Below are positions 35,919-37,167 of a DNA stretch of 64,000 nt, piece by piece. The translations under genes were made by a program, and so were the position numbers. The notes below the pieces were generated by a model. It was not told the DNA's origin. It worked only from the letters and a program-made list of their open reading frames with translations, and ran no database searches. Numbering within the stretch: the stretch's first letter is position 1; each line of letters begins with the position of its first letter. This DNA is from Candidatus Rokuibacteriota bacterium. GTDB taxonomy: Bacteria > Methylomirabilota > Methylomirabilia > Rokubacteriales > CSP1-6. The stretch spans positions 38,919 through 102,918 of the forward strand of contig QHSI01000098.1 in the NCBI GenBank assembly GCA_003221515.1, read 5' to 3'.

Positions 35919-36218
35919 GTGAGACGCACCGTCCTGATCGCGACGATGGTCGCGCTGGCCGTCATGGTCGTCGGATGCGCGACGGCGCCGTTCGACGGCT
36001 ACCAGAACGGCCCGGTCACGCTCTACATCGGTGAGGTGCGCCACATCTGCGCCGCCGGCGCGCTCAACAATCGTGGGTGCACCGTTCGCTACCCGAACGG
36101 CCGCATCGAGGTCTACTGCGCTCGCGACGATTACGAGTGCATCGCCCACGAGCTTCGCCACGTCGCCGATCCGGGGTGGCAGCACGACCTCGACGGCGTC
36201 ACGCTGTCGTCCCGCTAG
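35919..36218 (+). CDS. Small lipoprotein with HExxH motif
   Basis: RRTVLIATMVALAVMVVGC lipobox; IAHELRHVADPGW. Confidence 0.65.
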   Translation: MRRTVLIATMVALAVMVVGCATAPFDGYQNGPVTLYIGEVRHICAAGALNNRGCTVRYPNGRIEVYCARDDYECIAHELRHVADPGWQHDLDGVTLSSR

Positions 36219-36238
36219 CTCCGATCGCAGCTCCTCCA

Positions 36239-36266
36239 TTGACCTGATCGCAAGGGGCGCTGTATA
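36239..36266 (+). promoter_or_regulatory. Candidate sigma70-type promoter TTGACC-N16-TGTATA upstream of the AhpD-like gene
   Basis: Direct reading; GGAGG at ~36301 precedes the ATG at 36312. Confidence 0.45.
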
Positions 36267-36311
36267 CCGCCCTAAGACGCATCCGACGCCGATCGAGCAC
36301 GGAGGACGTCC

Positions 36312-36893
36312 ATGGCCAACGAGCGCGGGCTCTTGCCGAAGGCGCGTCGCGAAGACCTGAGCGACGAAGCCCGAGGACTGCTGGAGCGCTGGTACCGGAA
36401 CGCCTATCAGGACGACAACCTGTTCCTGACCATGGCGCGCCGGCCGGGCTTGCTCGACGCCACGTGGGGCTTCATCCGCTACATCTACGGCGGCGGCTCG
36501 CGCATCGAGTCCGAGCTCTTCGAACTGGTGCGCGTCAAGCTCGCCTGGAACAACCAGTGCGTGCACTGAAGCCTGGCGCGCTCGTCCTCGGCCGTGCGCC
36601 GGGGCGCGACGGAAGATCTGGTCGCCAAGCTCGCCGACTACGAGCACTCTGACCTGCCCGAGCGGACCAAGGCCGCGCTGCGCCTGGCCGACCGTCTCTC
36701 GGGCGACCGGCCCGCCCTCGACGACGCGTTCTACGAGGAGCTGCGCCGGCACTTCTCCGACGACGAGGTGCTCGATCTCGGGATGACGATCTCCTTCGCG
36801 AGCGGCTGGCAGCGCTTCATCGAAGCCTTCGGCATCGTGCCGGATCGCTGGACCGAGGCGGGGCCGTCGCCGTTTCGGGCGCTCGCCGACTAG
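36312..36893 (+). CDS. AhpD/carboxymuconolactone decarboxylase-like protein with in-frame TGA (candidate selenocysteine, CxxU)
   Basis: ORFs 36312-36569 and 36594-36893 share a frame; the only interruption is TGA at 36567-36569 in ELVRVKLAWNNQCVH[U]SLARSSSAVRRGATEDLVAKLADYEHSDLPERTKAALRLADRL. Confidence 0.75.
36592..36612 (+). promoter_or_regulatory. Candidate bacterial SECIS-like hairpin inside the coding sequence
   Basis: CCGTGCGC[CGGG]GCGC(G)ACGG; apical loop begins 31 nt after the TGA. Confidence 0.45.
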
Positions 36894-36976
36894 CGCTCCC
36901 CGGTAGCTTTTACTCAGTAGTTTTTCTCGTCGACCCGGTAGTTTTGTCCGGCGCGCCTGATCGTTGATCCCGCCGG

Positions 36977-36998
36977 CCGGCGATCGATCGATCGCCGG
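36977..36998. repeat. 22-bp perfect palindrome CCGGCGATCGATCGATCGCCGG
   Basis: Direct reading. Confidence 0.9.
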
Positions 36999-37167
36999 AA
37001 CGCTCCGCGAACTCAACGAGAACGCGCCTTTGCTCGACTCGTCGCCCTCGATGGCACGGTCGATGCTCGATCGCGACCCGGCAGTCATCGCGCATCCAGT
37101 CCGTCGCGGCTCCACAAAGGAGGCACCGTGATCGCGCAGCACGTCTCAACGGCGAGCGCGAGAGGCC

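Follow-up and report, generated by a model that had tools for sequence, protein, structure and literature searches.

A conserved in-frame UGA in an AhpD-like gene of Rokubacteria is very probably read as selenocysteine

Organization of the gene

In the 64,000-nt stretch of a Rokubacteria genome analysed here (hereafter the window), two open reading frames on the + strand share a frame and are split only by a TGA, which raises the question of whether that codon ends a protein, marks a damaged gene or is read as selenocysteine (Sec). The original prediction joined the two frames, and they are indeed the halves of a single 193-aa frame (positions 36312–36893, + strand). This frame starts with an ATG at 36312, has the TGA as its single interruption and closes at a TAG (36891–36893), the first stop after the TGA; the second open reading frame as listed begins at an internal GTG (36594). 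Our reading of the sequence places a Shine-Dalgarno-like GGAGG at 36301–36305 (+ strand), with the ATG 6 nt further on. The in-frame TGA (36567–36569, + strand) occupies residue 86, and the active-site motif of the read-through product is C83-V-H-U86, with the Cys83 codon at 36558–36560 (+ strand).

Gene anatomy by itself is weak evidence for a selenoprotein: the window contains 13 TGAs that are flanked by open frames and lie three residues from a Cys. What lifts this candidate above chance is that 50 distinct loci show homology before and after the TGA and all have it at this very residue, and that purifying selection acts on either side.

Fold and family assignment

The read-through protein matched PF02627 (CMD) with an E-value of 2e-4 and 21.6 bits, just below the cut-off of 23. 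Its best NCBIfam match was NF053654 (GroundWater_YciW, “YciW-related (seleno)protein”; E 2.7e-12, 46.8 bits vs an equivalog cut-off of 310), and it also matched TIGR01926 (peroxid_rel; E 4.5e-10, 39.6 bits vs a cut-off of 81.8) and NF041238 (AhpD_rel_CFYUT; 14.8 bits vs a cut-off of 175). Across 20 orthologues, the best E-values were 1e-14 for NF053654, 7e-15 for TIGR01926 and 2e-4 for NF041238. The protein thus reaches the curated cut-off of none of these three named NCBIfam families. NF053654, whose Sec members abound in the window’s bacterial family, represents a paralogous subfamily, and the window protein falls far under its cut-off. NF041238 likewise describes an AhpD-related (seleno)protein with CxxU; however, its model is longer (357 positions), and the window protein matches it only in part (residues 64–184).

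Searching the PDB with phmmer identified PA0269 of Pseudomonas aeruginosa (2ijc; E 8e-11), in an alignment that spans the TGA and places this codon opposite the second Cys of CAYC. An AlphaFold2 model built from 20 orthologues reached a pLDDT of 82 and a pTM of 0.81, with segment 90–96, shortly past the Sec, poorly modelled. The best Foldseek matches were the AhpD-core structures 2prr (E 6.8e-7), 3c1l and 6k40 together with Bmp8 and PA0269. By fold and sequence, the protein is AhpD-like (CMD superfamily, peroxidase-related branch). The TGA had been proposed to replace the second Cys of the AhpD/CMD CxxC motif, and both PA0269 and a distant Cys-form relative (L109) have Cys at that column.

PA0269 (2ijc/2o4d/7xw1) shares the fold of the window protein (2o4d: Foldseek E 3e-5, TMt 0.82) as well as the spacing of the Glu and the CxxC motif; however, it has Cys, His55 and Tyr50 where the window protein has Sec86, Arg90 and His85, respectively. 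Bmp8 (6ohi/6ohj) and 2prr have the same fold and a similar length (TM about 0.73–0.77), whereas their identity to the window protein is about 20–26% and the window protein bears no sign of a halogenated substrate.

Active site and proposed chemistry

The AhpD proton relay consists of Glu, Cys, (His/Tyr), Cys and His, and the residue equivalent to His137 has been called invariant among AhpD-like structures (PMC3141380). The window protein keeps Glu71, Cys83, His85 (equivalent to His132 of Mycobacterium tuberculosis AhpD) and Sec86 as the second Cys. Glu71 (36522–36524, + strand) corresponds to AhpD Glu118 and PA0269 Glu36, has PA0269-like spacing (PMC3141380) and is Glu in 55/55 ortholog-group rows (50 distinct loci); Cys83, the resolving Cys of CxxU, is invariant in the group. 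The position of AhpD His137 and PA0269 His55 is held by Arg90 (36579–36581, + strand), and all 55 ortholog-group rows have either R (36) or K (19) there, with H in none. The AhpD relay is incomplete in that its His137 equivalent is lacking, so canonical AhpD relay or peroxidase chemistry is not assured; the fold assignment is unaffected. Arg also occurs at this position in most Sec paralogues and in the Cys-form L109, indicating that the replacement of His is not strictly tied to Sec.

Most likely, we infer, the protein acts as a thiol/selenol oxidoreductase, with Sec as the attacking residue and Cys83 as the resolving one. The Sec86 selenolate would attack a peroxide or disulfide substrate to give a selenenic acid or a mixed selenosulfide, Cys83 would resolve this intermediate into an internal Se–S bond, and a cellular thiol donor would then reduce that bond. 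The candidate substrates are a peroxide, a disulfide or, by analogy with Bmp8, perhaps a halide. No gene neighbourhood was conserved beyond close relatives, so gene context gives no operon-type clue to function.

A selenoprotein other than a peroxidase, such as a Bmp8-like reductive dehalogenase or the dedicated redox partner of another enzyme, is a rather unlikely alternative. The debrominase Bmp8 is among the close Foldseek matches (6ohj: E 4.5e-6, TM about 0.77), and the exchange of the relay His and the lack of a conserved neighbour that would indicate a pathway also fit such a role; however, peroxidase-related AhpD-core proteins are equally close by fold and sequence, and nothing suggests a halogenated substrate. 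The thiol/selenol oxidoreductase described above is the reading that we prefer.

Conservation of the TGA and selection on the flanking sequence

We drew relatives from 99 related genomes, an 85,462-species collection and the 398 genomes of an Acidimicrobiales member’s order; after removal of five repeats, 26 loci and 24 further ones gave 50 distinct ortholog-group loci covering residue 86. The codon at this residue is TGA in 50/50 of these loci and Cys in none, and the translated orthologues carry U there in almost all of 26. Aligning relatives at residue 86, as the original prediction had advised, thus gave TGA in every orthologue and Cys in the solved relatives and in L109. Most of these loci come from Rokubacteria or from Actinomycetota records, Acidimicrobiales among them; a Chloroflexi MAG (L060, 64%) and a Desulfobacteraceae MAG (L061, 61%) contribute one each. 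The ortholog group is united by the blocks MAN-x-x-G-x-x-PKA (N-terminal), DDNLFLT and GWQRF-x-EA and has the signature E-x11-C-x-H-U-S-x2-[RK]. Distant Rokubacteria paralogues likewise have TGA at the aligned position.

The pattern hits from the 85,462-species collection included no Cys orthologue, and none occurred in 398 genomes of the Acidimicrobiales order of G109, 110 genomes of the class of G105 or 86 genomes of the class of G106. The sole Cys hit was L109 (95 bits, CRSC), which is a member of another subfamily.

Residues directly following the TGA are conserved like the rest of the protein, with S87 and S91 invariant and R90 nearly invariant. Based on comparisons with seven Rokubacteria orthologues, dN/dS is 0.11–0.24 before the TGA and 0.16–0.44 after it, the latter range indicating that the downstream part is selected as protein.

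The original prediction had kept open a nonsense mutation or a base-call error, meaning that the codon is really TGC or that the gene is dead. TGC and TGA do differ by one base, and a related Rokubacteria copy (L035/L066, genome G007) is frameshifted just past its Sec codon; however, conservation of a same-residue TGA in 50 distinct loci from independent assemblies and several phyla, with TGC or TGT in none, makes a base-call error or lone nonsense mutation untenable. Purifying selection past the TGA and a complete set of Sec machinery also speak against a pseudogene. The explanation is already refuted for the family as a whole, and for the window copy its probability is negligible. The frameshift in the G007 copy lies ~15 codons past the Sec codon and reflects either decay of this copy or an error in the assembly.

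Selenocysteine machinery

The Rokubacteria MAG that contains the window (5.1 Mb) holds all four components of Sec decoding for which the original prediction had proposed a search. To judge by the match between L024 and L053, this genome belongs to the genus of the Rokuibacteriota MAG AR22. The hits to selA (567 bits), selB (359 bits) and tRNA-Sec(UCA) (69.8 bits) each exceed the curated cut-off and are grouped on contig C184, and ARAGORN confirmed the tRNA-SeC (tca) in this genome. The selD hit (339 bits, L076) is also above its cut-off and is located on another contig (C150:27763-28707); this selD gene carries one in-frame TGA and is itself probably a selenoprotein gene. The G+C content of the selA, selB and tRNA-Sec loci (0.70–0.72) is nearly equal to that of the window (0.69) and gives no sign of contamination. 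In addition, selA was found in 18/18 other gene-bearing genomes tested, 17 of them with hits above the cut-off and one with a partial hit.

It is hardly credible that the UGA is a programmed stop yielding an 85-aa N-terminal protein, with the second half made separately from the GTG at 36594: many orthologues do offer a GTG or comparable start codon in frame at +25 or +28 nt, but the split would sever both the catalytic CxxC and the two-helix core of the AhpD fold, conservation right behind the TGA equals that of the remaining protein, and every tested genome with the gene has selA.

A probable SECIS hairpin downstream of the UGA

Most orthologues outside the window clade, together with the compared paralogues, have a hairpin at +14 to +30 past the UGA, with a 7-bp stem and a 3-nt loop that usually opens with G. 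Across 27 distinct sequences, 85.7% of cells in this hairpin were paired and the covariation score was 0.615; by comparison, slid pairings scored 0.09–0.19, and 0/500 shuffles reached the observed value. The window clade, along with L059 and L060, has its hairpin at +17 to +35 instead, a downstream shift of 3–4 nt relative to other members, with the stem CCUCGGC/GCCGGGG and the loop CGUGM or CGUGG. In the window itself, this putative SECIS hairpin spans 36586–36604 (+ strand) and has the loop CGUGC. Its 7-bp stem is formed in 14/14 clade loci, where 99% of cells are paired vs 32–58% when the pairing is slid. Covariation of the window-type hairpin was not found within these 14 loci, in which the stem hardly varies.

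Codon usage also bears the mark of the element. Synonymous codons +7 to +12 are frozen across 11 Rokubacteria. Among 16 copies from Acidimicrobiales, 5/7 codons are frozen within the hairpin block vs 0/15 elsewhere (Fisher p 0.0008); invariant residues outside the block use several codons in these copies. Covariation and codon freezing thus support a SECIS element at the family level, and the window’s own copy likely has one, judging from the conserved hairpin of its clade. The folding energy of the window copy past the UGA was not lower than that of synonymous-codon shuffles (z -0.16, p 0.43), in a stretch that is GC-rich; the same test was significant for some paralogues only. The sole Rfam match in 36200–37000, which we attribute to chance, was to an lncRNA family with no relation to SECIS elements.

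A sister clade from Acidimicrobiales-order genomes (L093–L108) has CFHU at the active site. Its post-UGA codons AGC GCA TCG TTG GTG CGC are frozen almost without exception, whereas those around them vary, so that the constraint imposed by a SECIS on coding sequence is plain to see; the Acidimicrobiales copies provide a clean example of a SECIS element freezing synonymous codons. Three other Acidimicrobiales copies (L070–L072) have a SECIS-like hairpin that is shifted again, with the stem GTCATCA/TGATGAC, indicating that hairpin position drifts inside the ortholog group. The shift in the window clade, too, illustrates that the SECIS elements of a single orthologous group can change position.

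We propose that SelB and Sec-tRNA-Sec would recode the UGA at codon 86, guided by the SECIS hairpin within the next ~35 nt, to yield a 193-aa all-helical AhpD-like oxidoreductase with a Cys83-x-His-Sec86 active site. Conserved recoding (TGA in 50/50 loci), the decoding machinery, family-level SECIS covariation, the fold and the active-site layout, all observed computationally, bear out the CxxU selenoprotein first suggested for this locus. We are highly confident that the gene encodes a genuine selenoprotein, an AhpD-like oxidoreductase whose UGA86 is recoded under SECIS guidance.

Relationship to known AhpD-like selenoproteins

AhpD-like selenoproteins have been known since 2005, in agreement with the original prediction (PMC1088965, PMC2398784, PMC13188914). 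AhpD-like/CMD-domain CxxU selenoproteins were reported from Sargasso Sea data in 2005 (PMC1088965), the families AhpD-like 1 and 2 from GOS in 2008 (PMC2398784), and several AhpD-like/CMD selenoproteins, including TIGR01926- and PF02627-type entries, are listed in a 2026 review (PMC13188914). The abundance of selenoproteins in Methylomirabilota is also known, and one MAG of this phylum is predicted to hold 63 selenoprotein genes (PMC13188914). Like the window group, these AhpD-like families have CxxU in an AhpD/CMD fold and a UGA decoded with a downstream SECIS, and they derive from metagenomic bacteria. Whereas the earlier families have many Cys homologues (PMC2398784), the window group was found only with Sec in the searches made; it also differs in having its own signature and in scoring below the TIGR01926 and PF02627 cut-offs.

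The finding opens no new kind of biology, since this kind of protein is already known. As far as could be checked, what is new is a subfamily of patchy distribution that is apparently Sec-only, falls under every NCBIfam cut-off, seems to lack a curated model of its own and carries Arg/Lys in place of AhpD His137. The group is named nowhere in the literature on selenoproteins of Rokubacteria and Acidimicrobiia that we covered. We suggest, tentatively, that it may be a distinct Sec-only family without a Cys form that has passed between distant Sec-decoding hosts (Rokubacteria, Acidimicrobiales, a Chloroflexi and a Desulfobacteraceae genome). In such a family, Arg/Lys and the low pKa of Sec might jointly replace the relay His and support a chemistry of its own. 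Annotation pipelines would split such a gene at the UGA or label it a pseudogene, so this conserved redox enzyme can easily escape notice in Acidimicrobiales and in Rokubacteria from soil.

With this group, Methylomirabilota gain one more Sec-only branch in their already large set of AhpD-like selenoproteins. In a survey of 95 genomes of the phylum, almost every genome of one family (f1) had several AhpD-like genes with one in-frame TGA, and the phylum’s other families had few or none, making this expansion of paralogous CxxU selenoproteins unusual. The window’s genome also contains a second AhpD-like gene (L002; G000 C112:32581-33054) with 33–35% identity to the window protein. In this gene, too, the aligned position is an in-frame TGA, within the motif CRYU, and its SECIS hairpin (AUGCCGG/CCGGCAU) forms a perfect 7-bp stem.
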